In this document: positions 35,872-50,488 of the stretch, in pieces
How positions within the stretch are numbered: position 1 is the first letter of the stretch
How the letters are laid out: each line of letters starts with the position of its first letter
Source of the DNA: Proteocatella sphenisci DSM 23131
Lineage (GTDB): Bacteria; Bacillota; Clostridia; Peptostreptococcales; Filifactoraceae
Direction of reading: 5' to 3'
DNA length: 57,691 nucleotides
NCBI RefSeq assembly: GCF_000423525.1
Contig: NZ_AUID01000019.1
Span: forward strand, 1 to 57,691
Notes under the pieces: model-generated
Told to the model about the DNA's origin: nothing
Databases searched by the model: none
Seen by the model: only the letters and a program-made list of their open reading frames with translations
Translations under genes and position numbers: made by a program

Positions 35872-36714
35872 TTAGCCCGATATGACATGTTTTAGATCTT
35901 TTAAAAAGGGAAAGCTTATGCATGCTGCCATGATCCAGAGGTTTAAAAATTCGGTGACCATGCCATGGCCAACAGCCAGTATAATAAGGGATATGAGAAG
36001 GAGTAAAGCAGAGGCCTTTACCCTTCTTGGGCTTATAAGATTCGTTTCAAGGTCGTTCATAGAAAGTATGGCTTTTAAAAGTGAAAGTCTCAGGATATAT
36101 GCAATGCCAATAATAAGGACCATCATTGATGAGAAAGCATCAAGAGAAACAGTCATAACACCAAATCCTCTGAAGAACCATAAAAGCGACATCATAAAAG
36201 ATATTACTATAAAAGGTAAATTTTGTTTATTATCAGGCTTTAACTTGTAATCAACAAATAAAGCCGTGCCAAAAAACAGCGGATAGATAAATGGCGAAAT
36301 AAAATATTGGACTATAGTAAATATAGTCATTGCAGATAACTCAGCAAGAGAAGACCTGTATCCGCTGCTTTTTATAAGAAGGCGGATAGTAAAGAGGAAG
36401 AAAAAAGTGGTCATTAGGTGTACTTCTCTTATCCCAATGATAAAGAGACTGGTAAGTATAAAAGATGGAAGATATATATTCACGCTGTCTGGAGAAAGTT
36501 CTACCATTATAAGATATGTTACATAACAAAGAATGGTTTTTCTAAAGGCGTCGATAACTGATAAAAACATACCTGTATCAATTATAAAATAAGAATATAT
36601 AAAGGAAGTCAAAGCCAAAAGAATACATAAAGGTATTATGAATTTATCAAAATTGTTTTTTTTCCTGTTTAACCTTATCGTGGTTGGGAATAAAGATTCT
36701 ATAGTACTTTGCAT
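35872..36714 (-). CDS. Unrecognised polytopic membrane protein
   Basis: A 280-residue protein with seven or eight hydrophobic segments after a basic N-terminal stretch (residues 1-25). I see no conserved motif that names a family. It is read toward addA, with only seven bases between the two stop codons, and a GGAGG ribosome site supports the start at 36714. Its start is 73 bases from the divergently transcribed lipoprotein gene, so the two may share a control region. Confidence 0.75.
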   Translation of the reverse strand: MQSTIESLFPTTIRLNRKKNNFDKFIIPLCILLALTSFIYSYFIIDTGMFLSVIDAFRKTILCYVTYLIMVELSPDSVNIYLPSFILTSLFIIGIREVHLMTTFFFLFTIRLLIKSSGYRSSLAELSAMTIFTIVQYFISPFIYPLFFGTALFVDYKLKPDNKQNLPFIVISFMMSLLWFFRGFGVMTVSLDAFSSMMVLIIGIAYILRLSLLKAILSMNDLETNLISPRRVKASALLLLISLIILAVGHGMVTEFLNLWIMAACISFPFLKDLKHVISG

Positions 36715-36787
36715 AAAATTGTTTCCTCCAATGTAGTTATATTGTCAGTTTACACCAGCGGGAACACTATATCAAGGAGAAAAGATT

Positions 36788-37963
36788 ATGAGAGTAAAAA
36801 TAAAAAACTATATATTAATAATAACCATGGCTCTTTCAGTAATGGTTATTATTAATGGGTGCAATATAAAAGCTGACATTCAAGAAGACTCAGAATTGGA
36901 AGTGATAAAAATAGGGGTTCTGGAACCCCTAAGTGGAGCAAATGCAGAGGGCGGGAAACTCGAGCTCGAAGGAATAAAGCTTGCAAACGAGATGTACCCA
37001 AAAGTGCTTGGAAGAAAAGTACAGCTGGTAATAGCAGATAATAAATCAGACAAAGAAACATCTGCACAGCTTGCAGACAGGCTGGTAAATGAATATGGAG
37101 TATCAGCAATTATAGGTTCATGGGGATCTGGATTATCCATGGGAGCAGGAGAGGTTATTAAAGCGGCGAAAATTCCTATGATTGCACCTTCAGCTACAAA
37201 TCCCAAAGTCACAAAGGACAACGACTATTATTTTAGAGCATGTTTTATAGATCCTTTTCAAGGGGAAGTCCTTGCAAAAATGGCATACGAAAGATTAGAA
37301 GCTAAGACGGCATTTATAATATACGAAAAATCCAATGAATATTCACAGGGCCTGGCAGTTTTCTTTGAAAATGAATTTGTCAAGCTGACTGAAAAAAAAT
37401 CAAGTGTAGTGGCTGTAACAGGTTATGACCAGGGAACCCTTGATTTTACTGGAATTCTTGAAGAAGTTGCAGCTCAAGATCCAGATGTAATATTTGCGCC
37501 AGGCAATTTTACAGAATCGGCAATGCTAATAAAACAAGCCAGGCGAATGGGGATCAAAACAGATTTTCTGGGAGGAGACACATGGGAGAATCCTGAATTC
37601 CTAAACGTGGGCTTAGAGTCAGTAGAAGGGGCTATGATAACAACCTCGTTTTCCGCTGAAAAACCCGCAAACTGGGCATCCAGAGACTTTATATCCAAAT
37701 ATACCAAGAGATACAGCCGAAAACCACTTTCACTTTCAGCTCTTGGATTTGATTCATACAGGATTATAATAGATGCTATAAAAAGAGCAGGCACTGCAGA
37801 AGACAGTGAAAAACTAAGGCAGGCTATTGCATCTACCCAAAATTTCAAAGGAACGACGGGGAAGATAAGTCTTGATAAAAATGGAGATGCAATAAAAGAT
37901 GTGGTAGTACTAAAAGTGAAAAACGGAAAGTTTGTTTATCAAACTACTGTAAGGTATAAATAA
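36788..37963 (+). CDS. Branched-chain-type amino-acid-binding lipoprotein (LivJ-like), orphan
   Basis: A 391-residue receptor of the Peripla_BP_6/LivJ family. A lipoprotein signal ends at lipobox IINGC (Cys about residue 25). The core begins KIGVLEPLSGANAEGGK, with later GSWGSGLSMG and APSATNPKVT. No permease or ATPase genes adjoin it. It lies directly upstream of the PrdR-like regulator, so it could supply an ABC transporter encoded elsewhere or have a sensing role. The ligand is unknown. GGAGAAA ribosome site. Confidence 0.85.
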   Translation: MRVKIKNYILIITMALSVMVIINGCNIKADIQEDSELEVIKIGVLEPLSGANAEGGKLELEGIKLANEMYPKVLGRKVQLVIADNKSDKETSAQLADRLVNEYGVSAIIGSWGSGLSMGAGEVIKAAKIPMIAPSATNPKVTKDNDYYFRACFIDPFQGEVLAKMAYERLEAKTAFIIYEKSNEYSQGLAVFFENEFVKLTEKKSSVVAVTGYDQGTLDFTGILEEVAAQDPDVIFAPGNFTESAMLIKQARRMGIKTDFLGGDTWENPEFLNVGLESVEGAMITTSFSAEKPANWASRDFISKYTKRYSRKPLSLSALGFDSYRIIIDAIKRAGTAEDSEKLRQAIASTQNFKGTTGKISLDKNGDAIKDVVVLKVKNGKFVYQTTVRYK

Positions 37964-37985
37964 ATTCTTCTTTAAAAAGACCGGG

Positions 37986-38048
37986 ATAAATTTATATAAA
38001 AACTTGATCCGTGGTATAATTGTCCCAAGGATTAAATAAATTTATATA
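37986..38048 (+). promoter_or_regulatory. Promoter of the PrdR-like gene flanked by a 13-base direct repeat
   Basis: Extended -10 TGGTATAAT (38012-38020). The identical sequence ATAAATTTATATA occurs on both sides (37986-37998 and 38036-38048), 50 bases apart, and could be an operator pair. No good -35 is seen. Confidence 0.45.
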
Positions 38049-38062
38049 GCGCGGAGGTTTTG

Positions 38063-39457
38063 ATGAATAAAAAGTTTGAAGTGTTCCTGGATACAGCGGC
38101 AAGAGACTTTATACTGGACGTTATGGACGAAGCCATATGTATAGTTGATAATGATGGGATTGTGCATGTATGGAATGAAAAATCAGAAAAAATATATGAT
38201 GTAAAAAAAGCAGAACTGATTGGGAAAAAAATGGATTCGGTACTTAAAGATACCGTGATAATAAAAGTCCTTGAATCCGGAGAAGACATGGAGAATATAT
38301 ATCAGTCTACCAGGACGGGGTGCAGCATACTTGTAAATGCCAAGATAATATATATAGATGGAGAAAAAGTTGGAGCACTTTGTGTAGACAAAGACTTGAG
38401 CGAGATTGACAGGCTTAACATACAGGTGGACAAGCTTAAGGATAAGATTAACTACCTTGAAATACAAAGAAAAGCTGAAATGAACAAAAGTACAATGATA
38501 GCTGGAAACAGCATACAAATGGAAGAACTCATGTACAAGGCTGGCAAGGTCGCAAAAACAGATACGCCATTAATGATACTTGGAGAAAGTGGAGTGGGTA
38601 AAAAAGCTCTTGCCAGACGTATACATGAAATGAGTCAGAGAAAAGGCCCTTTTGTACATGTAAACTGCGGAGCTATTCCAAATGAAATCTTTGAAAGCGA
38701 GTTTTTTGGAAGTACAGATATAAATACAGGTAAAAACAGACCGGGTCTTTTTGAAATAGTGGATCAGGGAACCATATTTCTTGGAGAGATAACAGATATG
38801 CCCATAAATATGCAAGCTAAATTGCTTAATCTGATGCAGAAAAATGAAATTGTAAGAGCCAGTGATGGAAAACATATTAAGATAAATACAAGAATTATAA
38901 GTGGCACTAATAAAAACATAGAAGAAATGATAGAAGAAGGGACTTTTCTTGAAGAATTGTATTACAGTCTCAATGTAATTGAGCTCATAGTTGCTTCCTT
39001 AAGAGAACGAAAATCAGATATACCACTTCTTGCAGATCTTTTTATGAAAGAAATGTGTGACAAATACAATCTGGAGATACCAAAACTGGATTCTGAAGTA
39101 GTTGATATACTAATGCAATATAGTTGGAAGGGAAATATAAGGGAGTTACAAAACGTTATTGAACACGTAGTTGTAATGAGTGGAGGAAAGACTATAACTA
39201 CCGATATGTTGCCAATTTCCATAAAAGAAAGCGTTAAAACCTACATGAGGGCTAATATTCAGGTAAATGACCTTGCAAAGAGTGTTGGCGAATTTGAAAG
39301 AGACATAATAGAAAACATTATGAAAAAGTCTGACTGGAACAAATCTGAGGCGGCAAGGATGCTTAATATTCCAAGAACTACACTAATATATAAAATAGAC
39401 CTGTATGGTATAAAAGATAAAAAAGAAAGAAAAACAAAGAAAAGCAAAACTGTCTAA
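38063..39457 (+). CDS. prdR: PrdR-like regulator with degenerate sigma-54 activator domain
   Basis: A 464-residue protein with an N-terminal PAS domain (about 15-120), an AAA+ domain (about 155-395) and a C-terminal Fis-type helix-turn-helix (NKSEAARMLNIPRTTL). It sits directly upstream of prdC, the position of PrdR, the proline-responsive regulator. Walker A (GESGVGKK) is present. GAFTGA is replaced by DINTGK, the Walker B LFLDEI reads IFLGEI, and the arginine-finger region FREDLYYRL reads FLEELYYSL. It therefore probably cannot hydrolyse ATP to remodel sigma-54 holoenzyme and may act at a sigma-A promoter. ATG 38063 follows GGAGG. Confidence 0.85.
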   Translation: MNKKFEVFLDTAARDFILDVMDEAICIVDNDGIVHVWNEKSEKIYDVKKAELIGKKMDSVLKDTVIIKVLESGEDMENIYQSTRTGCSILVNAKIIYIDGEKVGALCVDKDLSEIDRLNIQVDKLKDKINYLEIQRKAEMNKSTMIAGNSIQMEELMYKAGKVAKTDTPLMILGESGVGKKALARRIHEMSQRKGPFVHVNCGAIPNEIFESEFFGSTDINTGKNRPGLFEIVDQGTIFLGEITDMPINMQAKLLNLMQKNEIVRASDGKHIKINTRIISGTNKNIEEMIEEGTFLEELYYSLNVIELIVASLRERKSDIPLLADLFMKEMCDKYNLEIPKLDSEVVDILMQYSWKGNIRELQNVIEHVVVMSGGKTITTDMLPISIKESVKTYMRANIQVNDLAKSVGEFERDIIENIMKKSDWNKSEAARMLNIPRTTLIYKIDLYGIKDKKERKTKKSKTV

Positions 39458-39467
39458 TATCCGACTA

Positions 39468-39483
39468 TGTCGAAAAAGCGACA
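39468..39483. promoter_or_regulatory. Candidate PrdR operator 1: TGTCG-N6-CGACA
   Basis: A perfect 5-bp inverted repeat (TGTCGAAAAAGCGACA). Its first ten bases recur exactly at 39567-39576, next to the prdC promoter. Binding by PrdR is inference. Confidence 0.45.
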
Positions 39484-39566
39484 ACTCGTGTAAAATATAC
39501 GACCACAGCGAAAGTTGTTTAATTGCAAGGGTTATAATACATGAACAAAACCTGATAACGATCATG

Positions 39567-39582
39567 TGTCGAAAAACAAACA
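39567..39582. promoter_or_regulatory. Candidate PrdR operator 2 abutting the prdC -35
   Basis: TGTCGAAAAACAAACA repeats the left half and the terminal ACA of operator 1, 99 bases downstream of it, and ends two bases before the -35. This spacing suits an activator touching sigma-A polymerase. Confidence 0.4.
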
Positions 39583-39583
39583 C

Positions 39584-39612
39584 TTGCGTTAAATAATTAT
39601 TTATCATATAAT
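39584..39612 (+). promoter_or_regulatory. Sigma-A promoter of prdC
   Basis: TTGCGT (39584-39589), a 17-base spacer and a perfect TATAAT (39607-39612). No -24/-12 element is seen in the 266-base prdR-prdC gap. Confidence 0.65.
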
Positions 39613-39644
39613 TGATATAGAGAAATCAAATATAATCATTTATA

Positions 39645-39668
39645 AATATCAATATCAATATCAATATA
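39645..39668. repeat. Four tandem AATATC hexamers in the prdC leader
   Basis: Three exact and one near-exact copy of AATATC between the promoter and the ribosome site. It may be a regulatory repeat or simple slippage. Confidence 0.6.
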
Positions 39669-39723
39669 AATATAGGAAATGTACTGATGTTCTATATGAA
39701 AAATAATAACAGGAGGTGGAAAT

Positions 39724-41001
39724 ATGAAGTTAGTTTTACCGTTAAAACAACATGTTGGTGCACCTTGCACACCAGTTGTCAAAGTTGGCGATGAAGTAAA
39801 ACGTGGTCAGTTGATAGCAAAACCAGCTGGTCTTGGTGCGAACATTCATGCCAGTGCTAATGGAAAAATAGTTGAAGTTAGTGAAAATGAAATCGCTATA
39901 GAAGCGACAGGAGAAATCAACAAGGATGAGTATGTGAGATTGACATCACAAGACAACTTGTCACTTATAGAAGAAGCTGGAATAGTAGGTTCTGGTGGAG
40001 CTGGTTTCCCAGCACATGTGAAATTCAAGGCTAAATTAGAAGGTGGATATGTACTTGCAAACGCAGCAGAATGTGAGCCTTTACTGGCACACAACATGCA
40101 TCTTCTTGAAAATGAGCCAGAGCTTGTAGTAAGAGGTATTAAATATGTAATGGAAATTACAGGAGCTACTCATGGTTATATAGCTATAAAGACAAAACAT
40201 CAAAAAGCTATGATATCAGTTGCCAAAGCATGTAAAAATGTAGAAGGCGTGGAGGTTAAATTCCTTTCTGATATGTATCCTGCAGGAGATGAGAGGGTTA
40301 TCGTAAGAGAACTTCTTGGAATCGAATTGCCGCTTGGAGCACTTCCAAGTGAAGCAAACGCAGTCGTAAGTAACGTTGAAACACTTAAAAATGTAACTTA
40401 TGCCATTGAGAAAAAAATGCCAGTAATTACAAAAGATATAACAGTGGGCGGCAGAGTTTCAAAACCTTCCGTTTACAGAGAAGTACCAATAGGAATGCAG
40501 GTGAAGGACTATATAGATCTTTCGGGTGGATATGTAGAGCCTCATGGAGAAATTGTTCTTGGAGGACCCTTTACTGGGAAACATGGTGAAGAGTCAGCAA
40601 GAATAGTAAAAACTCTTGGAGGAATACTTGTTGCTATACCATTCCCTGTAGACCACAGAAAATTCGGAATGATAGAATGCGAATGTGGAGCAGAAAAAGG
40701 AAGACTTACAGAAATTGCAGAAGCTATGGGTGGGACAGTAGTTGCCTCAGTAAAATGCAAGAGAATGGAAGAAATCAACGGGAGATTCCGTTGTACCCTA
40801 CCTGGCATATGCCCAGGCCAGGCAGAAAAAGTACTTGAGCTTAGAAAACAAGGTGCAGAGGCAATAATTGTCGGCACTTGTGAAGACTGAACTAATACAG
40901 TTATGGAAGTGGCGCCTAGGTTAGGTATTGCCGTATATCATAGTTCAGATCACACTTTAAGAGCAGGTGGACACAGATTGTATAGAAAAAAGAAAAGCTA
41001 A
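39724..41001 (+). CDS. prdC: PrdC, RnfC-like electron carrier of proline reductase (selenoprotein)
   Basis: A 425-residue protein with UGA (40888-40890) read as selenocysteine at residue 389. It delivers electrons to D-proline reductase. The RnfC-like part has GSGGAGFPAHVKFKAKLE and NAAECEPLLAHN near residues 92-120. A simple reading stops at GTCED-stop. Past the UGA the frame continues 36 codons with protein-like sequence (TNTVMEVAPRLGIAVYHSSD) to TAA at 40999, giving the GTCxDU motif known at the PrdC C-terminus. A candidate SECIS hairpin lies at 40911-40932. AGGAGG ribosome site. Confidence 0.93.
40911..40932 (+). promoter_or_regulatory. Candidate SECIS hairpin of prdC
   Basis: GGC/GCC and CCT/AGG stems around an AGGTT loop, 20 bases after the UGA. 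It is shorter and less perfect than the prdB element. Confidence 0.45.
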
Positions 41002-41066
41002 TACTGAATTTCTTTTTTATATAAAATAAACAAAAAATTATTAAATCCAAAAAGGAGGAACGTGTA

Positions 41067-42923
41067 ATGTCAATAACTTTAGAAACAGCTAAGGCTCATG
41101 CTAAAGACCCTGCAGTTTCTTGCTGTAGATTTGAAGCAGGAACTGTTATTGAAGTATCAAACCTTGAAGACCCAGCAATATTTGCTGATTTACAAGACTC
41201 AGGACTTCTTAATATATCAGATGATTGTTTAACAATCGAGCAAGCATTAGGAGCAAAATTAACTAAAACAGTTGATGCTCTTACTCCACTTACAGCAGCA
41301 GTAGTAGATGGAATAACAGCAGTAGCAGCAGCACCAGTAGTAGAAGAGGTGGCTGAGGTTGCAGCAGCACCAGCACCAGCACCACAAATGATGCCTTTAT
41401 CAAATGGTGGAGCAGTAAGAATCCACATAGGTGAAGGAAAGAACATAGATCTTGAAATACCTCTTGGTGTAGCAACTCAAATGGGTGTAGCACCAGCGGC
41501 TATGACATCAGCGGCTATCGTAGAAGCTCCAGCAGCAGTAGCGGCAGCAGCAGAAGAAAAAGTTCTTAGAAGTCTTACAAGAAAGCACTTCAAAATAGAA
41601 AAAGTTGAGTTTGGACCAGAAACTAAAATAGAAGGAACTACTCTATACATCAGAGAAGGAATCGAAAAAGAAGCTGTAGATTCAGAGAATCTAGTAGTTT
41701 CACTAAAAGTAGAAATAATCACTCCTGACAAATATGATACTCATTCAGAAACTATAATGGACGTACAACCTATCGCAACTAAAGAAGAAGGCGAATTAGG
41801 AACAGGTATTACAAGAATGCTTGATGGCGTTATTATGATGGTAACTGGAGTAGATGAAGGCGGAGTACAAATCGGAGAGTTTGGATCATCAGAAGGACCA
41901 CTTGACAGAAATATCATGTGGGGAAGACCAGGAGCTCCTGATAAAGGCGAAATCTTTATAAAGACAGAAGTTGTTATAAAAGCACATACTAATATGGAAA
42001 GACCAGGACCTCTTGCAGCACACAAGGCTTCTGACTTCATCACTGATGAAATTAGAAAAGCACTTAAAGCAGCGGATGCTGCCCTATGTGTAAACGAAGA
42101 AACTTTCGTTCAAAAAAGAAGACCAGGAAAGAAAAAAGTAGTAGTAATAAAAGAAATAATGGGACAGGGCGCAATGCATGACAATCTTATCCTTCCAGTT
42201 GAGCCAGTAGGAACACTTGGAGCTAAGCCAAACGTTGACCTTGGAAACCTTCCAGTAGTTCTTTCACCACTTGAGGTGCTTGATGGAGGAATCCATGCAC
42301 TTACTTGTATAGGACCTGCTTCAAAAGAGTGTTCAAGACATTACTTCAGAGAGCCGCTTGTACTTAAGGCTATGCAAGATGAAGAGCTTGATCTTTGTGG
42401 AGTAATATTTATAGGATCACCACAGGTAAACTCAGAGAAATTCTATGTATCAAACAGACTTGGAATGATGGTAGAAGCTATGGACGTAGACGGAGCTATC
42501 ATAACAACTGAAGGATTCGGAAACAACCATATAGACTTTGCATCTCACCACGAGCAAATAGGATCAAGAGGAGTTGCGGTAGTAGGAGTATCTTACTCAG
42601 CAGTTCAAGGAGCCCTAGTTGTTGGAAACGAATACATGAAGTTCATGGTAGACAACAACAAGTCTAAGCAAGGAATCGAAAACGAGATACTTGCAAACAA
42701 TACTTTATCACCAGAAGATGCAATAAGAGCAGTTGTAATGCTTAAAAATGTAATGGCTGGAGAAGAAGTTAAGACTGCAGAAAGAAAATGGAACGCAAAC
42801 GTAAAGCTTAACAACGTAGAACTGATTGAAAAATCTCAGGGAATTAAAATAGTTCTTGAAGATAATGAGCAATCACTTGTAAAGAGTAAAAAAAGAGCAG
42901 AAATCTACGAAGTAGAAGCGTAA
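41067..42923 (+). CDS. prdA: D-proline reductase proprotein PrdA
   Basis: A 618-residue precursor. In this family self-cleavage before a Cys makes a large subunit and a small subunit with an N-terminal pyruvoyl group that binds proline. The site here is Thr413|Cys414 (GIHALT|CIGPASKE; codon 42306-42308). With the selenoprotein PrdB it reductively opens D-proline to 5-aminovalerate. Residues about 83-107 and 141-164 are Ala/Pro/Val-rich, resembling flexible linkers around a small domain. AAAGGAGG precedes the start. Length is as expected. Confidence 0.96.
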   Translation: MSITLETAKAHAKDPAVSCCRFEAGTVIEVSNLEDPAIFADLQDSGLLNISDDCLTIEQALGAKLTKTVDALTPLTAAVVDGITAVAAAPVVEEVAEVAAAPAPAPQMMPLSNGGAVRIHIGEGKNIDLEIPLGVATQMGVAPAAMTSAAIVEAPAAVAAAAEEKVLRSLTRKHFKIEKVEFGPETKIEGTTLYIREGIEKEAVDSENLVVSLKVEIITPDKYDTHSETIMDVQPIATKEEGELGTGITRMLDGVIMMVTGVDEGGVQIGEFGSSEGPLDRNIMWGRPGAPDKGEIFIKTEVVIKAHTNMERPGPLAAHKASDFITDEIRKALKAADAALCVNEETFVQKRRPGKKKVVVIKEIMGQGAMHDNLILPVEPVGTLGAKPNVDLGNLPVVLSPLEVLDGGIHALTCIGPASKECSRHYFREPLVLKAMQDEELDLCGVIFIGSPQVNSEKFYVSNRLGMMVEAMDVDGAIITTEGFGNNHIDFASHHEQIGSRGVAVVGVSYSAVQGALVVGNEYMKFMVDNNKSKQGIENEILANNTLSPEDAIRAVVMLKNVMAGEEVKTAERKWNANVKLNNVELIEKSQGIKIVLEDNEQSLVKSKKRAEIYEVEA

Positions 42924-42954
42924 AATTTCAAACTAGCAATAAAGGAGAACTTAG

Positions 42955-43209
42955 ATGGATAAATTAAGATATACTTCTACGGAAAGATATGTGGAAGGCG
43001 TAATAGTTGATGTTAAAGACGGTTCTGTAGGAATAGATCTTAAAGGTAGACTGGGTCACCTGAGTGTACCGATGAGAATGCTCATAACAGATTATGAACC
43101 ACAATTAGGACTAGAGGTAGGATTCTTAATGAGTTATCCTGAAGTGATAGGACCTGAAATAAACGAAAAATACGCTCAAAATTTAGAACATAAAAAAAAT
43201 AGAGAATAA
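42955..43209 (+). CDS. Small conserved prd-operon protein (CBO2463/CBO2479-type)
   Basis: An 84-residue protein between prdA and prdB, where proline-reductase clusters carry a short conserved gene. Its centre (GSVGIDLKGRLGHLSVPMRM) looks like a small beta-barrel. It has no Cys and no membrane segment. I recognise it by position and by resemblance to the CBO2463/CBO2479 family; its function is unknown. An assembly or maturation role for PrdAB is plausible but unproven. AAGGAG ribosome site. Confidence 0.8.
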   Translation: MDKLRYTSTERYVEGVIVDVKDGSVGIDLKGRLGHLSVPMRMLITDYEPQLGLEVGFLMSYPEVIGPEINEKYAQNLEHKKNRE

Positions 43210-43233
43210 ATAAGGAAAAGGAGGAATATAATA

Positions 43234-43959
43234 ATGAGTCTTACAGTAGTCAAAGGACTTCAGTCAGAAATATTTGTTCCAGTAACTCCGCAACCAGTGT
43301 GGACTCCAGTTACAAAAGAACTTAAAGATTCAGTAGTTGCCCTTGCAACAGCAGCGGGTGTTCATCTGAAAACAGATAAAAGATTTAATCTTGCAGGAGA
43401 TTTCTCATTCAGAGCAATTCCTGGAAATACAAAAGGTACAGATTTAATGGTATCACACGGTGGATACGATAACGGAGATGTTAATAAAGACGTAAACTGT
43501 ATGTTCCCTATCGAAAGATTACAAGAACTTGCAGCAGAAGGATTTATAAAAGCAGTTGCTCCGATGCACTTCGGATTCATGGGTGGTGGAGGAGACCAGG
43601 CGAAATTCACTGAAGAGACTGGCCCAGAAATCGCTAAGCAACTATTAGCAGAAAACGTAGATGCAGTTCTTCTTACAGCAGGCTGAGGTACATGCCACCG
43701 CTCTGCCGTGATCGTGCAGAGAGCAATCGAATCAGCTGGAATACCTACTATAATTATAGCAGCGCTACCTCCAGTAGTTAGACAAAACGGAACTCCAAGA
43801 GCAGTTGCACCACTAGTACCAATGGGAGCAAACGCAGGAGAGCCAAACAACATAGAAATGCAGACAGCAATAGTTAAAGCAACGCTTGAGCAATTAATAA
43901 AAATACCAAGTGCAGGAAAGATAGTACCATTACCATTCGAGTACCACGCACACGTATAA
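43234..43959 (+). CDS. prdB: D-proline reductase PrdB subunit (selenoprotein)
   Basis: A 241-residue catalytic selenoprotein with UGA (43684-43686) as Sec at residue 151 in the motif TAGUGTCHRS. The frame is open through the UGA to TAA at 43957, and the part after it (AALPPVVRQNGTPRAVAPL, MGANAGEPNN) is the conserved PrdB C-terminus. The selenol attacks proline bound to the PrdA pyruvoyl group. A strong SECIS hairpin begins 14 bases after the UGA. An annotation without recoding would split it into a 150-residue protein and a fragment starting at 43708. Confidence 0.96.
43701..43721 (+). promoter_or_regulatory. SECIS hairpin of prdB
   Basis: A perfect 6-bp stem CTCTGC/GCAGAG around the 9-base loop CGTGATCGT, 14 bases after the UGA. 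This is the right distance for a bacterial SelB-binding element. Confidence 0.75.
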
Positions 43960-43983
43960 TAAATAGAACTCACAATATAAAAA

Positions 43984-44018
43984 TATACACAGGAGAGGTT
44001 CTCCCTTTCCTGTGTATA
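43984..44018 (+). other. Intercistronic hairpin between prdB and prdD
   Basis: An 11-bp perfect stem (TATACACAGGA/TCCTGTGTATA) with a 13-base loop that can itself pair (GAG/CTC). No T run follows. It may protect the prdAB mRNA end and lower prdDE expression. Confidence 0.6.
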
Positions 44019-44039
44019 AAACAATAAGCAGGTGTAAAA

Positions 44040-44798
44040 ATGGAAACTGTAGATTTGCGTAGATTAGTAATAAGATCTTTTCACGTAAAAAAAGTCGAGT
44101 TTGCTGATAAGTTTGAGTTTTTGAATGGCACACTCAAAATTGATAAAAAAATAACAAATAAATTAATAGCTCAGGATCCAATAATCAAGGACGTAAGAAT
44201 AGAAATCATAAATCCTTATGACCATGATAGAGAAATAAACACTATTATGGACATTGTGCCTATGTCAGTTAAAGTGCTTGGAAGCCTTGGAGAAGGCATT
44301 ACATATACGATGACAGGTGCGTATGTTATGTTGACAGGTTGTGATGACGACGGTAGACAGATGCATGAATTTGGATCATCAGAAGGAAATCTTAGTGAAC
44401 AGATGGTATTTGGAAGAGCTGGGACTCCAGCAAAGTCTGATTATATTATCCATGTGGATGTACTTGTTGAAGGTGGGCTACCCTACGATAGGAAATTGCC
44501 AATATCAGCATTCAAGGCATGTGATGAGATTATAGATTCAATAAGAGCTGAGCTTAAGAAACTTGAACCAAGAGAAGCGGACGAAGTTCATGAGTTTTAT
44601 GATCGCATAAGAAAAGATTCTAAAAAAGTAGCGCTGGTAAAACAGATTGCAGGACAGGGAGCTATGTATGACAATCAGCTATTCCCTGAACAACCTTTTG
44701 GTTACACTGGTGGAATTTCAATAATTGATATGGCGAATATGCCAGTTGTACTGTCTCCTAATGAATACCGAGATGGTGCACTCAGATCAATGACCTAA
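44040..44798 (+). CDS. prdD: PrdD, paralogue of the PrdA large subunit
   Basis: A 252-residue protein aligned by eye with PrdA residues about 167-413. Shared blocks include LRxL...FxxxKVEF, EFGSSEG, GQGAM.DN and the NxPVVLSP block. It ends in RSMT, exactly where PrdA has HALT before its cleavage Cys. It lacks the PrdA N-terminal Ala-rich part. PrdD proteins are conserved in prd clusters without an assigned reaction. With PrdE it may form an uncleaved-type companion of PrdA. It has a weak ribosome site (CAGGTG). Confidence 0.9.
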   Translation: METVDLRRLVIRSFHVKKVEFADKFEFLNGTLKIDKKITNKLIAQDPIIKDVRIEIINPYDHDREINTIMDIVPMSVKVLGSLGEGITYTMTGAYVMLTGCDDDGRQMHEFGSSEGNLSEQMVFGRAGTPAKSDYIIHVDVLVEGGLPYDRKLPISAFKACDEIIDSIRAELKKLEPREADEVHEFYDRIRKDSKKVALVKQIAGQGAMYDNQLFPEQPFGYTGGISIIDMANMPVVLSPNEYRDGALRSMT

Positions 44799-44810
44799 TG
44801 GAGGTATAAA

Positions 44811-45278
44811 ATGGGTATAGGACCATCGACAAAAGAGACAAGTCTGCATCATTTTAGAGATCCATTACTGGATATATTATCAAACGATACAGATATAGAT
44901 CTTGTAGGAATAATGCTTGTAGGCACACCGCAAGACAATAAAGAAAAAGAAAGAGTTGGACAAAGGGCAGCGCAGTTGCTTGAAGCGATGAGAGTGGATG
45001 GATGTATAGTTTCTTGTGACGGTTGGGGAAATTCGCATGTTGATTATGCGAATACACTCGAAGAAATAGGAAAGAGAAATATTCCACTTGTTGGAGTAAC
45101 ATTCAACGGAGTCCAGGCCAAATTTGTTGTAACTAATAAATACATGGATACAATCGTAGATATAAACAAGTCTAAAGAAGGTATTGAAACCGAGGTAGTA
45201 GGTGAAAATACAACAAGCACGCTGGATGCAAAAAAAGCAACAGCATTTTTGAAACTTAAAATGAGAAAGCGAGGATAA
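44811..45278 (+). CDS. prdE: PrdE, paralogue of the PrdA pyruvoyl subunit
   Basis: A 155-residue protein matching the PrdA small subunit from its first residues (MGIGPSTKE versus CIGPASKE), then HHFRDPL, DLVGIMLVGTPQ, EAMRVDG and NxHVDxA blocks. The Cys that becomes the pyruvoyl group is replaced by Gly, so it cannot carry the prosthetic group. It starts 12 bases after prdD with a good GGAGG site. It lacks about 40 C-terminal residues of PrdA. Role unknown; perhaps structural or regulatory. Confidence 0.9.
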   Translation: MGIGPSTKETSLHHFRDPLLDILSNDTDIDLVGIMLVGTPQDNKEKERVGQRAAQLLEAMRVDGCIVSCDGWGNSHVDYANTLEEIGKRNIPLVGVTFNGVQAKFVVTNKYMDTIVDINKSKEGIETEVVGENTTSTLDAKKATAFLKLKMRKRG

Positions 45279-45280
45279 CT

Positions 45281-46285
45281 ATGATTTTTTCAAGAGGAAT
45301 ACAGGCAATAGATTCTCATACAGCAGGAGAACCAACAAGAATAGTTACAGGGGGAATTCCTAACATAAAAGGAAAAACAATGCCAGAAAAGAAAGAGTAT
45401 CTTGAGAAAGAACTTGATTATTTAAGAACGGCTATAATGCTTGAGCCAAGAGGACATAATGATATGTTTGGTTCAATAATCACAGCACCTACAACAGACG
45501 AAGCGGATCTTGGAATTATATTCATGGACGGTGGCGGATACCTTAACATGTGCGGACATGGTACTATAGGTGCGGTTACTGCTGCTATAGAAACAGGGAT
45601 GGTTCCAATGGTAGAGCCAATTACTACTGTTGTACTTGAAGCGCCAGCTGGAATAATAAAAGCAGAAGCTCAAGTGGAAAATGGCAGAGTTAAGAGTGTT
45701 TCTTTTGTAAACGTACCAGCATTCCACTACAAAAAAGAGCAAAAAGTTAATTTTGATGGAAAAGAGATCACTTTTGATATTTCTTTTGGAGGAAGTTTCT
45801 TTGCAATAGTTCATGCTAAGCAACTTGGTCTTGAAATTAAGCCTGAAAACACAGGAAAACTTACAGAAATTGCGCTTAAACTTAGAGATATAATAAACGC
45901 AGAAATCGAAATTCAGCATCCACTTCTACCGCATATTAAGACAGTAGATCTAGTTGAAATATATGATGAGCCTACTCATCCAGAAGCAACATATAAGAAC
46001 GTTGTTATATTTGGACAAGGACAAGTTGACAGATCACCTTGTGGTACTGGAACTTCTGCAAAACTTGCAACACTTCACTCAAAAGGCGAAATAGCAGTAG
46101 GTGAAAAATTTGTATATGAAAGTATTCTTGGAACACTTTTCTACGGAGAAATCGTAGGGACTACAAAAGTTGGAGAATTTGATGCAGTAATTCCAAAAAT
46201 AGCTGGATCTGCATATATTACTGGATTCAACCACTTTGTAATTGATGAGTGCGACCCTCTGAAGCATGGATTTATTTTAAGATAA
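45281..46285 (+). CDS. prdF: Proline racemase
   Basis: A 334-residue cofactor-independent racemase that converts L-proline to D-proline for PrdAB. Both catalytic Cys are present: Cys91 in MCGHGTIG and Cys254 in SPCGTGTSA, in contrast to hydroxyproline epimerase/dehydratase variants that replace one. It starts two bases after the prdE stop. Length is typical. Confidence 0.95.
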   Translation: MIFSRGIQAIDSHTAGEPTRIVTGGIPNIKGKTMPEKKEYLEKELDYLRTAIMLEPRGHNDMFGSIITAPTTDEADLGIIFMDGGGYLNMCGHGTIGAVTAAIETGMVPMVEPITTVVLEAPAGIIKAEAQVENGRVKSVSFVNVPAFHYKKEQKVNFDGKEITFDISFGGSFFAIVHAKQLGLEIKPENTGKLTEIALKLRDIINAEIEIQHPLLPHIKTVDLVEIYDEPTHPEATYKNVVIFGQGQVDRSPCGTGTSAKLATLHSKGEIAVGEKFVYESILGTLFYGEIVGTTKVGEFDAVIPKIAGSAYITGFNHFVIDECDPLKHGFILR

Positions 46286-46299
46286 GTTTTAAAACTTAT

Positions 46300-46346
46300 G
46301 TTAATCTCGAGTGCAATTTGAATCATAAAAAACACTCGAGATTAAC
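46300..46346 (+). terminator. 14-bp hairpin after prdF, weak terminator
   Basis: A perfect inverted repeat GTTAATCTCGAGTG/CACTCGAGATTAAC around a 19-base loop, 15 bases after the prdF stop. No T run follows, so termination would be inefficient or it is an mRNA-end stabiliser. Confidence 0.5.
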
Positions 46347-46455
46347 TAAAAATTAACAAAAAATGAACAATATTAGACCTGTATTAAATGCGTTTAAAAA
46401 ACAATGGAATCATTGATTTTACTGAATAAATTATAAAAAAAAAGACGATATGTAT

Positions 46456-46483
46456 TTGTTTTTTTTACAAAATATGCTATAAT
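46456..46483 (+). promoter_or_regulatory. Promoter of the TSUP gene
   Basis: TTGTTT (46456-46461) and extended -10 TGCTATAAT (46475-46483) with a 16-base spacer. Confidence 0.6.
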
Positions 46484-46539
46484 AAAGATATATTAAATGT
46501 TAAAATTTTAATATAAAAACTACTTAGGAGGAATTATTT

Positions 46540-47403
46540 ATGAACGCATCACTAGTACTACTTAGCGTACTCGCTCTACTTCTTGCAGGATTCTCTTTTA
46601 TATTTGTAAAAGATTATGTTGCACACAAAGATCAACTTGAATCAGAAACAAATTTTGTAACATCAGGAATTATAGGTATGGTAGTAAACTTCTTCGATAC
46701 ACTGGGAATAGGATCATTTGCTCCTACAACAGCGCTTCTTAGAACATTCAAGCAAATAGATGACAGGGTTCTTCCTGGAACACTTAACGTTGCTTGTACA
46801 ATCCCAGTTATAGTAGAAGCATTTGCTTTTATAAGAGCTGTAGAGGTTGAGCCAATAACACTTACATCTATGCTTGTGGCAGCATCTGTAGGATCATACT
46901 TTGGAGCAGGATTTATGTCTAAACTTCCAAAAGCTACAGTGCAAAGAGTAATGGCAGTAGCACTTGGACTTGCAGGTCTTGTAATGCTTGCACAGATGCT
47001 TGGAATCTTCCCAGGTGGAGGAGAAGCTATTGGTCTTACAGGAGTAGCTCTTGTAATAGGAGTTGTTGGTAATATGATACTTGGTGCTCTTATGACAGCA
47101 GGAGTTGGACTTTATGCTCCATGTATGGCACTTGTATACCTTCTTGGAATGAGCCCAGCAGTTGCTTTCCCAATAATGATGGGATCATGTGCATACCTTA
47201 TGCCAATATGCTCAGTGAAATTCATAAAAGAAGGAGCATATAACAGAAAAGCATCAATGGCAATAGCTGTGTTTGGGGTAGTAGGAGTTCTTATAGCTGT
47301 ATTCCTTGTAACATCACTTCCGCTTACAGTTCTTAAATGGCTTGTAGTGTGTGTTATAGCTTATACTTCAATATCAATGTTCAAAGCTTCAAAAACTGCA
47401 TAA
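46540..47403 (+). CDS. TSUP (TauE/SafE) family membrane protein downstream of prd
   Basis: A 287-residue protein with about eight transmembrane helices. The N-terminal half has IGMVVNFFDTLGIGSFAPTT and the second half NMILGALMTAGVGLYAPCMA, the repeated motif pattern of TSUP transporters, which move sulfur or organic anions. It has its own promoter and terminator. Its position next to the proline-reductase operon suggests a role with proline or its product 5-aminovalerate, which is inference. Confidence 0.85.
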   Translation: MNASLVLLSVLALLLAGFSFIFVKDYVAHKDQLESETNFVTSGIIGMVVNFFDTLGIGSFAPTTALLRTFKQIDDRVLPGTLNVACTIPVIVEAFAFIRAVEVEPITLTSMLVAASVGSYFGAGFMSKLPKATVQRVMAVALGLAGLVMLAQMLGIFPGGGEAIGLTGVALVIGVVGNMILGALMTAGVGLYAPCMALVYLLGMSPAVAFPIMMGSCAYLMPICSVKFIKEGAYNRKASMAIAVFGVVGVLIAVFLVTSLPLTVLKWLVVCVIAYTSISMFKASKTA

Positions 47404-47443
47404 TATTTTATATTAAAATAATAGCTGTTAAATGATATAATAT

Positions 47444-47477
47444 AAAAAAGTTGTTGATTAAATCAGCAACTTTTTTT
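47444..47477 (+). terminator. Rho-independent terminator after the TSUP gene
   Basis: AAAAAAGTTGTTGA pairs with TCAGCAACTTTTTTT, one G-U pair, ending in seven T. Confidence 0.85.
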
Positions 47478-47499
47478 ATCCTTTTATTCTGAGAATACC

Positions 47500-47565
47500 C
47501 CTGCTCTAAGTTGCTCTTCTCGCTTTAAGGAGAACAAAGGCGGCGGGAGCGTTCAATCTTATAAT
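47500..47565 (+). promoter_or_regulatory. GC-rich leader/promoter region before ornithine cyclodeaminase
   Basis: An unusually GC-rich 50-base stretch in AT-rich surroundings. TTCTC/GAGAA and CGCTTT/AAAGGCG can pair but exclude each other. TATAAT lies at 47560-47565 without a clear -35. No known riboswitch is recognised. Confidence 0.35.
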
Positions 47566-47588
47566 GTATGTAAATGAGGAGGTAAGAA

Positions 47589-48602
47589 ATGCTAATTTTA
47601 ACAAGAAAAGATATTGATCAATTCTATACGATGGAGGACTGCATAGAGTCGGTAATGGAAGCGTTTGCGCTGAGTTCTTCTAAAAAGGTAAAGGCACCTG
47701 TTAGAACCAAGCTTACAGTAGAGCATGTGCAAGGTAATGCGCTTTTTATGCCGGGGCTGGTAGAGGAGAAAGGTTATTTAGGAGCTAAGATAGTCTCTGT
47801 ATTTCCTCAAAATTCATCAAAAGGAAAACCTGTTGTAAATGCTACTATAGTAATGCTGGATGTTGAAACTGGAGAAGTAAAGGCTCTTATAGATGGGACT
47901 TACGTAACTAAGATGAGGACGGGAGCTGCAACTGGGGCTTCAATTAAATTACTCGCAAGAGAAAATGTTAAGATTGGCGTACTTTTTGGTACTGGAGGTC
48001 AGTCGGAGAAACAACTTGAGGCAATGATAGCTACAAGACATTTTGAAGAAATAAGAGTAGTGGGAAGAAACTTCGAAAAGACACTTGATTTTTGCGAAAA
48101 GATGAGCTTACTTATTCCGGAAATGAAAGTTAAAGAAGACCATAAAAATGTTGAAATAACTGCATATAAAGATGGGAATGATGCAGTTGCAGAAGCTGAT
48201 ATAATAGTACTTGCAACGACATCAACCAAGGGATTGTTTGATGGGAATCTGCTTAAGAATGGAGTCCATATATCTGGAGTAGGTTCTTATACCAAAGAAA
48301 TGTGTGAAATGGATAAGACTACTGTCCTCACTGCGGATAAAGTATACATTGATGACAGAGATTCTATGCTTGAAGAAGCTGGAGAATTTACCCAGCTGAT
48401 TGACCAGGGTATAATAAGCGAGGACTTCTACACAGGCGAAATTGGAGATCTCATACTTGGGAAAGTACCAGGAAGAGAAAACGAAGACGAAATAACTATA
48501 TTTAAAAGTGTTGGAATATCTGCCCAGGATTTAGTATCTGCAGAAAATATTTACAGAAAAGCAATTGAACTGGGAATTGGTCAAGTTATAGACTTTGATT
48601 AA
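47589..48602 (+). CDS. Ornithine cyclodeaminase family protein
   Basis: A 337-residue enzyme of the ornithine cyclodeaminase/mu-crystallin family. Ornithine cyclodeaminase makes L-proline and ammonia from L-ornithine using bound NAD. It has KMRTGAATGASIKLLAREN near residue 108, then GVLFGTGGQ as the dinucleotide site and the conserved Asp in VYIDDRDSM near 255. Family members can also act on alanine or cyclic imines. The neighbouring proline-reductase operon makes ornithine to proline the best reading. GAGGAGG ribosome site. Confidence 0.85.
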   Translation: MLILTRKDIDQFYTMEDCIESVMEAFALSSSKKVKAPVRTKLTVEHVQGNALFMPGLVEEKGYLGAKIVSVFPQNSSKGKPVVNATIVMLDVETGEVKALIDGTYVTKMRTGAATGASIKLLARENVKIGVLFGTGGQSEKQLEAMIATRHFEEIRVVGRNFEKTLDFCEKMSLLIPEMKVKEDHKNVEITAYKDGNDAVAEADIIVLATTSTKGLFDGNLLKNGVHISGVGSYTKEMCEMDKTTVLTADKVYIDDRDSMLEEAGEFTQLIDQGIISEDFYTGEIGDLILGKVPGRENEDEITIFKSVGISAQDLVSAENIYRKAIELGIGQVIDFD

Positions 48603-48651
48603 CATTAAACGCTTTATGTGCTAAAATATAACTAACAAGGAGGTATTTATT

Positions 48652-49299
48652 ATGAATTTTAAAGACGCAGCAAAAAAATGTGAGGATTTAAAGATCCAAA
48701 GAACTATTAAAGCTTTACATAAAAACAATATTGAAGGATATTACGCAAAAGATGCAGAAGAAGCTATAAAAACATTCAGGAGCCTGGTAAAAGAGAATTC
48801 AGTTGTCACAGCTGGAGGATCTATGTCCTGTGTTGAAACAGGAATCATGGATTTGTTAAGAAGCGGAGCATATGACTATAGAGATAGAGAAAGATCTGGA
48901 ATAACGCATGAAGAAGTGCAGCAGGTTCTTAGAGATGCGTTTACTTCTGATTATTTTATTACAAGCACAAATGCCATAACAGAAAATGGAGAACTGTTCA
49001 ATATAGATGGAAACGGGAACCGCGTTGCCGCAATATCTTTTGGACCTAAAGAAGTTATAGTAATAACCGGCTCAAACAAAATAGTCAGAGACTCAGAAGA
49101 AGCAAGAAAACGTGTAAAAGCGATTTCGGCACCTGCAAATGCAATGAGACTTGATTGTGAGACACCGTGCACGATAGATGGAATTTGCAGAAACTGTGCA
49201 TCTGAGAAAAGAATCTGTTGTACAGAGGTACTCACTGGGTTTCAAAGAATAAAGAATAGGATAAAGGTAATCATAATTGATGGGGATTTTGGATTCTAA
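48652..49299 (+). CDS. LUD-domain (LutC/YkgG-like) protein
   Basis: A 215-residue single-domain protein of the LUD (DUF162) family. It has VTAGGSMSCVETGIMDLLRSGAYD near residue 51, then TSTNAITENGELFNIDGNGNRV and a Cys-rich tail (CETPCTIDGICRNC) that could bind metal. LUD proteins with partner iron-sulfur proteins oxidise lactate, but stand-alone clostridial members have unknown roles. It follows ornithine cyclodeaminase by 49 bases and precedes a strong terminator, so the two are probably cotranscribed. Confidence 0.85.
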   Translation: MNFKDAAKKCEDLKIQRTIKALHKNNIEGYYAKDAEEAIKTFRSLVKENSVVTAGGSMSCVETGIMDLLRSGAYDYRDRERSGITHEEVQQVLRDAFTSDYFITSTNAITENGELFNIDGNGNRVAAISFGPKEVIVITGSNKIVRDSEEARKRVKAISAPANAMRLDCETPCTIDGICRNCASEKRICCTEVLTGFQRIKNRIKVIIIDGDFGF

Positions 49300-49328
49300 T
49301 AGTATGGATATATCAAAAATAATGTATT

Positions 49329-49365
49329 AATCAAAAAAAACCACAGCTTGTGGTTTTTTTTGATT
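49329..49365. terminator. Bidirectional terminator between convergent genes
   Basis: Perfect 17-bp arms (49329-49345 and 49349-49365) around GCT, with eight A and eight T at the flanks of a CCACA/TGTGG core. It serves both the LUD gene and the MscS gene. Confidence 0.92.
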
Positions 49366-49375
49366 AAAGAAGTTT

Positions 49376-50488
49376 TTATAAGTTTTCCATATAAACGCTT
49401 GTAGAAGGAAATGCAAAGCTTGAATTATGTCTTTGCAAGATGTCAAGTATTTCATAATTGACTTCTTCTCTTACTCGTTTAAGTTCAAAGAGAGATGTCT
49501 GATTTGTATAAAAGGTGACCATGATACTAATAGAACTTTCGGCAAATTCGTCGAGTTTAACCAAGGCTGTTTCTGTAATTATGTCTTTATGAATTTCAAG
49601 ATACATCTGTATATCATGGATGATGCTCTTTATCTGAGAAGGAGAAGTAGCGTATGTGATACCAAAATTAAATTTGACCCTACGTTTGTTCATCTTAGAC
49701 CAGTTAGTTATAGAGGCGCTTGAAAGAGTGGAATTTGGAACCACGAGCATAGCATCGTCAAAAGTTCTTATGCGAGTACTCCTGAAAGAAATATCTTCTA
49801 CGACGCCTTCTATAGAGTCGGATTGTATCCAGTCTCCTACAGCAAAGGGCTTATCAGATATGATTACAAGTCCTCCAAAAATATTAGAGGCAGTGTCTTG
49901 AGCGGCAAGAGCAAATGTAAGACCGCCGAGTCCCACTCCTGTGATAAGTCCATTTATATTTACTCCAAATTCCCCAAGCACTATCAAGATTGCAATTACA
50001 AAAATTACAACTTTTATGATTTTTGTAAAGAACATCATAAGGGTATCATCGAGCAGAGTAGAACTTGGATTTTTAATCCGACTGAAGGCTTCCATTATAA
50101 TGGGAATTGCTGTGTATATAAAATATATTACGCACAGTATAATAGCAAGTCTGTAAAATTTTCTTACAAAAGCAAGCATCATAGGATAATCAGTTATCAA
50201 AGTTTTTTGAGCCATGAATGATATAAACATCAAGGTTGATACAAATATAAGACGTAATGGCTTTTTCAAAAAAAACATGGAAGATATTTCAACATTTAAC
50301 TTGGTTTTTTTCGTTAATCTATGCATAAAATTAATTATGATGTTTGCAAAATAGCTCTTAAAAATATGAGCGAGTATGAATACTATTATTAATATGAAAA
50401 TATTCGCAAAGTATCTTGCAAAGAAATCATAAATACTGTAAAATAAATTGTTAAAAATGGCAGAAAATGCGTAAATGAGCCTTTCCAT
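49376..50488 (-). CDS. MscS-family mechanosensitive ion channel
   Basis: A 370-residue membrane channel. About five hydrophobic segments in the N-terminal half are followed by the pore-lining helix (GVGLGGLTFALAAQDTASN, near residue 185) and the beta domain with GGLVIISDKPFAVGDWI. It opens under hypo-osmotic stress to release solutes. The start at 50488 has GGGAGG upstream on the reverse strand. It faces away from glmS. Confidence 0.92.
   Translation of the reverse strand: MERLIYAFSAIFNNLFYSIYDFFARYFANIFILIIVFILAHIFKSYFANIIINFMHRLTKKTKLNVEISSMFFLKKPLRLIFVSTLMFISFMAQKTLITDYPMMLAFVRKFYRLAIILCVIYFIYTAIPIIMEAFSRIKNPSSTLLDDTLMMFFTKIIKVVIFVIAILIVLGEFGVNINGLITGVGLGGLTFALAAQDTASNIFGGLVIISDKPFAVGDWIQSDSIEGVVEDISFRSTRIRTFDDAMLVVPNSTLSSASITNWSKMNKRRVKFNFGITYATSPSQIKSIIHDIQMYLEIHKDIITETALVKLDEFAESSISIMVTFYTNQTSLFELKRVREEVNYEILDILQRHNSSFAFPSTSVYMENL

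Follow-up and report, generated by a model that had tools for sequence, protein, structure and literature searches.

PrdD and PrdE of a clostridial proline reductase operon match the core of PrdA divided at its self-cleavage point

The DNA analysed here is a 57,691-nt stretch of contig NZ_AUID01000019.1 from Proteocatella sphenisci DSM 23131 (referred to below as the window), which carries a prd operon comprising a prdR-type regulator, prdC, prdA, a small CBO2463-domain gene, prdB, prdD, prdE and prdF (Table 1). The genes prdA, prdB, prdD and the small CBO2463 gene were identified by family scan, and prdR, prdC and prdF were named by gene order after PMC3091704 and PMC6311696. The prdB frame is interrupted by an in-frame UGA at 43684-43686 (residue 151, the Sec position). 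The prdC frame likewise has an in-frame UGA at its end (40888-40890), directly after the residues C-E-D, which fits the CxxU centre reported for PrdC (PMC3091704). A scan of positions 36000-50000 with Rfam gave no matches at the gathering score. The junction of prdD and prdE consists of a TAA stop (44796-44798), a GGAGG ribosome site and an ATG (44811), with both genes in one frame and 12 nt between them.

Table 1. Features of the proline reductase locus in the window
Feature	Position	Strand	Evidence
prdA proprotein	41067..42923	+	TIGR04480, 1005 bits (cut-off 700)
prdA cleavage Cys codon TGT (C414)	42306-42308	+	sequence
CBO2463/CBO2479-domain small protein, between prdA and prdB	42955..43209	+	NF041553
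prdB selenoprotein subunit	43234..43959	+	TIGR04483, 416 bits with UGA read through
15-bp hairpin in the prdB-prdD gap, ahead of the accessory part of the operon	43984..44018	+	fold z -5.8 for the gap
prdD, counterpart of PrdA core residues 167-413, putatively without catalytic function	44040..44798	+	TIGR04482 and gap-free alignment
PrdD stop, ribosome site and PrdE start	44796..44813	+	same frame; occupies the place of PrdA self-cleavage
prdE, counterpart of the C-terminal subunit of PrdA, putatively without catalytic function; begins Met-Gly	44811..45278	+	alignment
prdF, proline racemase, gene after prdE	45281..46285	+	ORF; name from gene order

The prdD product (252 aa) aligns without gaps with residues 167-413 of PrdA (38% identity, E 6e-54), its last residue T252 falling opposite T413, and the prdE product (155 aa) aligns, equally gap-free, with PrdA from I415 onwards (47% identity, E 1e-46), which places G2 of PrdE opposite C414. 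These alignments identify the pair as homologous to the PrdA core. A Cys-derived N-terminal pyruvoyl group has been characterised in the PrdA of C. difficile (PMC9908766). The pair itself does not have the layout of a PrdA proprotein, as a Gly and a stop/start stand where PrdA has the Cys within a continuous chain, and the scores of PrdD (250 bits) and PrdE (186 bits) with the PrdA model TIGR04480 are far below its cut-off of 700. PrdD is on the other hand a full-length match (1-246) to the equivalog model TIGR04482, with 364 bits at a cut-off of 320.

The initial annotation of this DNA had proposed that prdD ends opposite the residue preceding the cleavage Cys of PrdA, that prdE begins where the cleaved PrdA subunit begins, with Gly for the pyruvoyl-forming Cys, and that the gene boundary thus copies a post-translational one. 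The loci bearing on this proposal were gathered by a whole-genome profile search and by a scan of named genomes (one of the two patterns used in the latter contained the N-terminus of PrdE, so that those loci are biased for it), and every frame of at least 80 residues was read with profiles of the D half and the E half. There were 166 distinct E-only frames, from which we excluded three of GrdE type and 21 not spanning the N-terminus (17 located at locus ends, one broken PrdA, two truncated C. difficile PrdE-like copies and one decayed remnant). All of the remaining 142 PrdE frames have a start codon (134 ATG, 8 GTG) followed by Gly at the C414 column, and none of them has a Cys there; for the profile-found loci only, the count is 111 of 111. 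The coincidence of the boundary with the cleavage point is not due to chance. The Cys itself is kept in each of the 166 PrdA frames spanning the junction. The distinct D-only frames number 172. The C-terminal part is present in 140, and 139 of these end at the column of T413, the remaining one being a broken PrdA; the 32 frames falling short of the C-terminus are all located at locus ends (31) except for one, a piece of a PrdA with a broken frame (L135). Both proposed ends were thereby confirmed, in 139 of 139 PrdD frames reaching this point and in 142 of 142 PrdE frames, and the alignments put the boundary nowhere else, which lends strong support to the view that it copies the post-translational cut. 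What did not hold up is a fixed last residue of PrdD: its position is conserved, while the residue is free (T in 67 frames, N in 23, H in 19, V in 17, Q in 9, D in 3 and C in 1; n=139), and the Gly of PrdE is invariant. The distance from the last PrdD sense codon to the PrdE start is mostly 11-18 nt including the stop. Genuine exceptions to the boundary are confined to one genome (G017) with a decayed remnant and to the two PrdE-like copies of C. difficile that are truncated. When the 42 long frames of the window, not all of them genes, are read from the first Met, just one has Gly as second residue.

Several loci called for separate comment. An apparently split unit inside the PrdA clade (L254) turned out to be a PrdA broken by a stop, and a presumed single uncut frame of 435 residues joining PrdD and PrdE in natural order (G806) resolved into separate frames of 256 and 156 residues and was taken as split. 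In C. difficile, a third, PrdE-like gene follows prdE at three loci (L072, L076 and L139) with a likely GTG start directly before a Gly (MGISTSMK), by which this diverged copy would also keep Gly at position 2; at two other C. difficile loci (L190 and L195) the PrdE-like copies are truncated.

Some PrdD matches were found to sit in single frames of about 420 residues, in which the PrdE half comes first and is followed by a linker (2 to 22 residues among the matches listed) and the PrdD half, the arrangement of a circular permutant of the PrdA core. There are 16 such frames (15 distinct), each holding both halves in one frame and in reverse order. In all 15 distinct sequences the chain begins with a start codon (ATG in 14, GTG in 1) followed by a Gly that falls on the C414 column, and the C-terminus falls on the same last alignment column, that of T413, in all 15; it is therefore the cut point, and not the gene order, that is conserved. 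A one-family search of 194 genomes returned four full-length matches to the permutant, of which two came from additional genomes, bringing the total to 17 genomes. One host is Aedoeadaptatus ivorii, with a complete named chromosome, which excludes an assembly error as the cause of the permuted form. The permutants are absent from the window itself and occur in a second operon of related genomes. At one such locus (L151) this operon comprises a separate prdC-like gene, a PrdA of reduced length, a CBO2463 gene, a PrdB without interruption and a proline racemase; this locus, L149 and the other permutant loci are second-set prd operons of a putative proline reductase type without Sec in PrdB. The permuted partner accompanies a Cys-type PrdB at 16 of 16 loci (two from the same genome), and the split partner a Sec-type PrdB at 181 of 181 (140 distinct D frames; some loci share a genome). 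Another 14 loci (12 Sec, 2 Cys) were scored as having no partner nearby, a count that overstates absence since in Terrisporobacter loci such as L116 prdDE is located at a greater distance; absence was therefore judged at the level of whole genomes (see below). At this Terrisporobacter petrolearius locus, prdDE is located apart from prdA-prdB, on the opposite strand and not directly downstream of prdB. NCBIfam names PrdD; in the family scans performed here, neither PrdE nor the permuted form matched a model of its own. Since the L149 permutant passes the TIGR04482 cut-off of 320 with 349 bits (that of L151 fails with 267), current family models can mislabel the permuted protein as plain PrdD.

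To the phylogeny we brought 51 rows, having removed near-copies by shared words, the broken L254, and the long rows L155 (permutant) and L168 (PrdA); the last two were also dropped from the AU tests and from the tree that includes f128. The 51-row tree divides PrdA from the split and permuted forms (support 100/100) and unites the permutants in one clade (100/99). A phylum-wide search of 398 genomes added a third lineage, f128, found in six genomes (two of which were read), and in the tree that includes it PrdA is again separated from all forms of the PrdDE side (100/99). At both f128 loci (L307 and L308) a split PrdD with a longer N-terminus and a PrdE accompany a short PrdA and a PrdB of Sec type; their PrdD ends in HSMT or HSVT and their PrdE starts with MGVGPSTK or MGIGPSTK. 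On the PrdDE side this lineage branches deepest (100/99, with 100/100 at the fork that follows), and a tree grouping all split forms, f128 included, without the permutants was rejected (p-AU 0.00017). With PrdA as the outer group, this rejection implies that fission came first and the reverse-order fusion later. Whether the f128 fission is a shared event or a repeat depends on the root.

Our first reading, that the permutants arose inside the split forms, was given up as the AU tests lent the nesting no support. Trees holding the split forms as one clade gave p-AU values of 0.353 and, with L229 and L095 dropped, 0.838 (in this second run the constrained tree was 20 log units above the quick free tree); with f128 added, and L229 again dropped from both the tree and its AU test, the value for the later split forms was 0.193. 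The point among the later split forms at which the permutants arose is thus not firm. A GrdE outgroup was of little use, its branches having a length of 5, and in the tree that included it two split forms (L229 and L235) fell outside both main groups.

The pattern of conservation is that of a protein under selection. Out of the 118 core columns fixed in PrdA (at least 95%), 68 hold the same residue in at least 90% of split PrdDE, 16 are fixed to another residue and 34 vary; the changed and fixed columns include E363Q, M365A, H410R, A418S and R424L, beside C414G. The combination of kept columns with columns fixed to a new residue argues for a kept but changed function and against decay. The permutants share only part of the changes of the split forms, H410 being retained in 73% of them.

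In both halves, the secondary-structure elements predicted for the L149 permutant (pLDDT 81.4, pTM 0.85) nearly match the helices and strands in the model of the window PrdA (pLDDT 80.8, pTM 0.75), apart from two extra short strands (372-375 and 409-412) and the lack of the PrdA helix 423-427. Its first 15 residues, among the most conserved, have pLDDT <50, so the pseudo-active site is unmodelled there; this segment may become ordered only with a partner. A sequence search of solved structures with PrdA gave no hits at E 1, Foldseek comparison of the permutant and PrdA models with the PDB gave none at E 0.001 or better, and VIA-align gave an uninformative best Z of 5.7 for the permutant model. 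The interpretation first attached to the two genes, a catalytically silent heteromer that copies the mature PrdA fold, fits this evidence, with the permuted single chain ending at the same point and the nearly matching predicted secondary structure in its favour. As a description of architecture and ancestry the silent copy of mature PrdA is well supported, and to this extent the interpretation is partly supported; scaffold, allosteric partner, chaperone and decoy are candidate roles for it.

Among the genomes checked there was no robust case of PrdDE without PrdA. Two candidates (G095 and G249) were rejected, both matches lying at contig ends. In 26 further genomes, PrdA scored over the cut-off in 24; in the remaining two it was cut by the contig start (G739) or present in pieces, one at a contig edge (G886). 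The latter genome has, in addition to an intact prdDE elsewhere, adjoining short frames that match portions of PrdD and PrdE (G886:C10:35544-36231); judging from the sequence, they are an additional PrdA-family copy that has been damaged. The converse, PrdA with no PrdDE match, was seen in seven genomes of 95-100% completeness, out of 13 queried (most of these chosen as suspects). A decayed prdDE remnant with deletions is located beside an intact prdA-prdB at L237:12024-12416, a natural loss of the partner. Taken together, the PrdA genomes without PrdDE and the remnant indicate a partner that is optional rather than essential. Both PrdD and PrdE proteins have been detected in C. difficile (PMC6311696).

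The gap between prdB and prdD has a recurrent potential to fold. Its largest stem has at least 9 bp in 112 of the 119 distinct gaps of at least 30 nt (123 gaps in total), and the median fold z of gaps of at least 40 nt (n=114) is -5.2. In the permuted type, each of the 10 loci that have prdB upstream likewise shows a hairpin ahead of the permuted gene (prdB is elsewhere in 5 more). The stems differ in sequence among relatives in the matches listed, and a T-tract (at least 5 T in 8) accompanies the split-type hairpin in only 3 of 119 cases. With the T-tract mostly missing, the hairpin may reflect an altered level or stability of the mRNA and not transcription termination, which leaves room for a helper protein made in lower amount.

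The explanation that we consider probable is that PrdDE is a pyruvoyl-free paralogue of PrdA, encoded already cut, which co-folds and acts as a non-catalytic partner stabilising or activating PrdA-PrdB. It draws on the invariant ends, the linkage to prdA-prdB, the presence in two operon types, the lack of a robust PrdA-less case among the genomes checked and the detection of the proteins in C. difficile. PrdA has to cut itself between T413 and C414 to form the pyruvoyl group, and in PrdDE the chain is broken at this place by the stop codon of prdD, the ribosome site and the start of prdE. With Gly for Cys in PrdE, neither that cut nor a Cys-derived pyruvoyl can form. According to this scheme, the PrdD and PrdE chains, the latter presumably after removal of its initiator Met, would fold together into a shape like that of mature PrdA and sit with PrdA and PrdB, and in the Cys-type sister operon the two chains would later have been re-joined by a linker in reverse order with their ends kept. 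Purified proline reductase has been described as consisting of PrdA-derived subunits and PrdB only, which speaks against PrdDE being a tight stoichiometric subunit. An additional and improbable proposal is that the free N-terminal Gly of PrdE, either as an amine or as a Gly oxidised to glyoxylyl, is itself a functional group, forming a second active or regulatory site or reaching the pyruvoyl of PrdA. A working chain end of this kind would explain both why Gly alone is used among the residues allowing Met removal and why fission and later permutation kept the end at the same residue.

Other roles have to be weighed against this partner function. PrdDE could be a low-amount assembly or maturation helper that assists PrdA/PrdB folding, self-cleavage or selenoprotein insertion and then leaves. 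The hairpin in most operons, and before the permuted gene as well, is what one would expect if less PrdDE were made, and PrdDE is missing in some genomes. However, given the rarity of the T-tract at the split type, reduced expression of PrdDE is a guess, PrdA is reportedly processed in vitro (according to the title of Bednarski 2001), and a chaperone would have no obvious need for chain ends fixed at the cleavage point; a helper role therefore seems rather unlikely to us. Quite unlikely, in our estimate, is that PrdDE is a second substrate-specific catalytic subunit working without a Schiff base on a proline derivative unable to form one. Such an enzyme would have precedents in the superfamily members FarE and GrdI, which are without the Cys and are not proproteins (PMC10838667), and in Cys-less GrdE-type paralogues of the window genome and its family, and many core residues are retained in PrdDE. 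The Cys-less subunits of GrdE, GrdI and FarE type nevertheless stay one chain whereas PrdDE is cut, no genome shown to be without PrdA yielded it, and the operons read contain no separate PrdB for it. The hydrazine-probe study of C. difficile also does not name PrdD and PrdE in its main text, but a subunit without a carbonyl would go unlabelled by such a probe. The GrdE-type paralogues in question have Phe for Cys (SGSFMP) and were seen at six loci (L031, which is in the window's own genome, L032, L033, L019, L027 and L030); those of L019 and L033 adjoin GrdH-like (betaine reductase) frames ending at UGA.

An allosteric proline sensor, with a substrate pocket that performs no chemistry and tunes PrdA-PrdB, would be in line with the core motifs kept in both PrdA and PrdDE, including K420, the Lys after the junction, but at several positions close to the junction PrdDE has a different fixed residue, and we hold this role to be very improbable. 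The idea that PrdDE is a neutral relic of a prdA duplication, which its loss or decay in some genomes might suggest, is contradicted by invariant ends and Gly in more than 100 sequences, by the occurrence in two operon types and by the detection of the proteins, and hardly deserves credence.

The resemblance of PrdD and PrdE to the middle and C-terminal parts of PrdA was already known, together with a proposed stabilising role (Fonknechten 2010, PMC3091704); the available parts of that paper make no mention of a boundary at the cleavage residue, of the Gly or of a permuted form. Our literature search found neither the exact boundary, the invariant Gly and the permutant, nor a proline reductase with a circular permutation or a cryo-EM structure, although theses and subscription papers (Bednarski 2001, Kabisch 1999) may hold the boundary. 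What emerges is a post-translational cut turned into a gene boundary and a reverse-order fusion in which neither chain end moved from that residue. Fission with a subsequent circular permutation is seen here in a clean natural example, which is at the same time a natural test of the purpose of self-cleavage, as the break is kept though the cofactor is gone. A silent copy with its ends at the PrdA cut point suggests that an already-cut, catalytically dead partner may be useful to proline reductase, and PrdDE would be a concrete putative partner for this important energy enzyme of amino-acid-fermenting clostridia.

With respect to known systems, PrdDE shares with PrdA (TIGR04480) gap-free homology over the whole core and a break at the same residue, and differs from it in lacking the Cys and the N-terminal 160-residue domain and in being encoded by two genes or as a reverse-order fusion. 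The betaine subunit GrdI and the fluoroacetate subunit FarE belong to the same superfamily and have likewise lost the Cys without being proproteins (PMC10838667). They form one continuous chain and are thought to be catalytic, in contrast to the split PrdDE, and they illustrate that the loss of Cys by itself needs no cut chain. The prozyme of AdoMet decarboxylase, a partner that stabilises or activates the enzyme, is not known to be processed, whereas PrdDE is encoded already cut. In trypanosomes it is a pyruvoyl-less dead paralogue kept beside a self-cleaving pyruvoyl enzyme (PMC5201418), and PrdDE, a paralogue without the pyruvoyl-forming residue, resembles it in this respect. The prozyme is an unrelated protein, and an activating role of PrdDE would follow by analogy only; with this qualification, the prozyme offers the closest working analogy for PrdDE.
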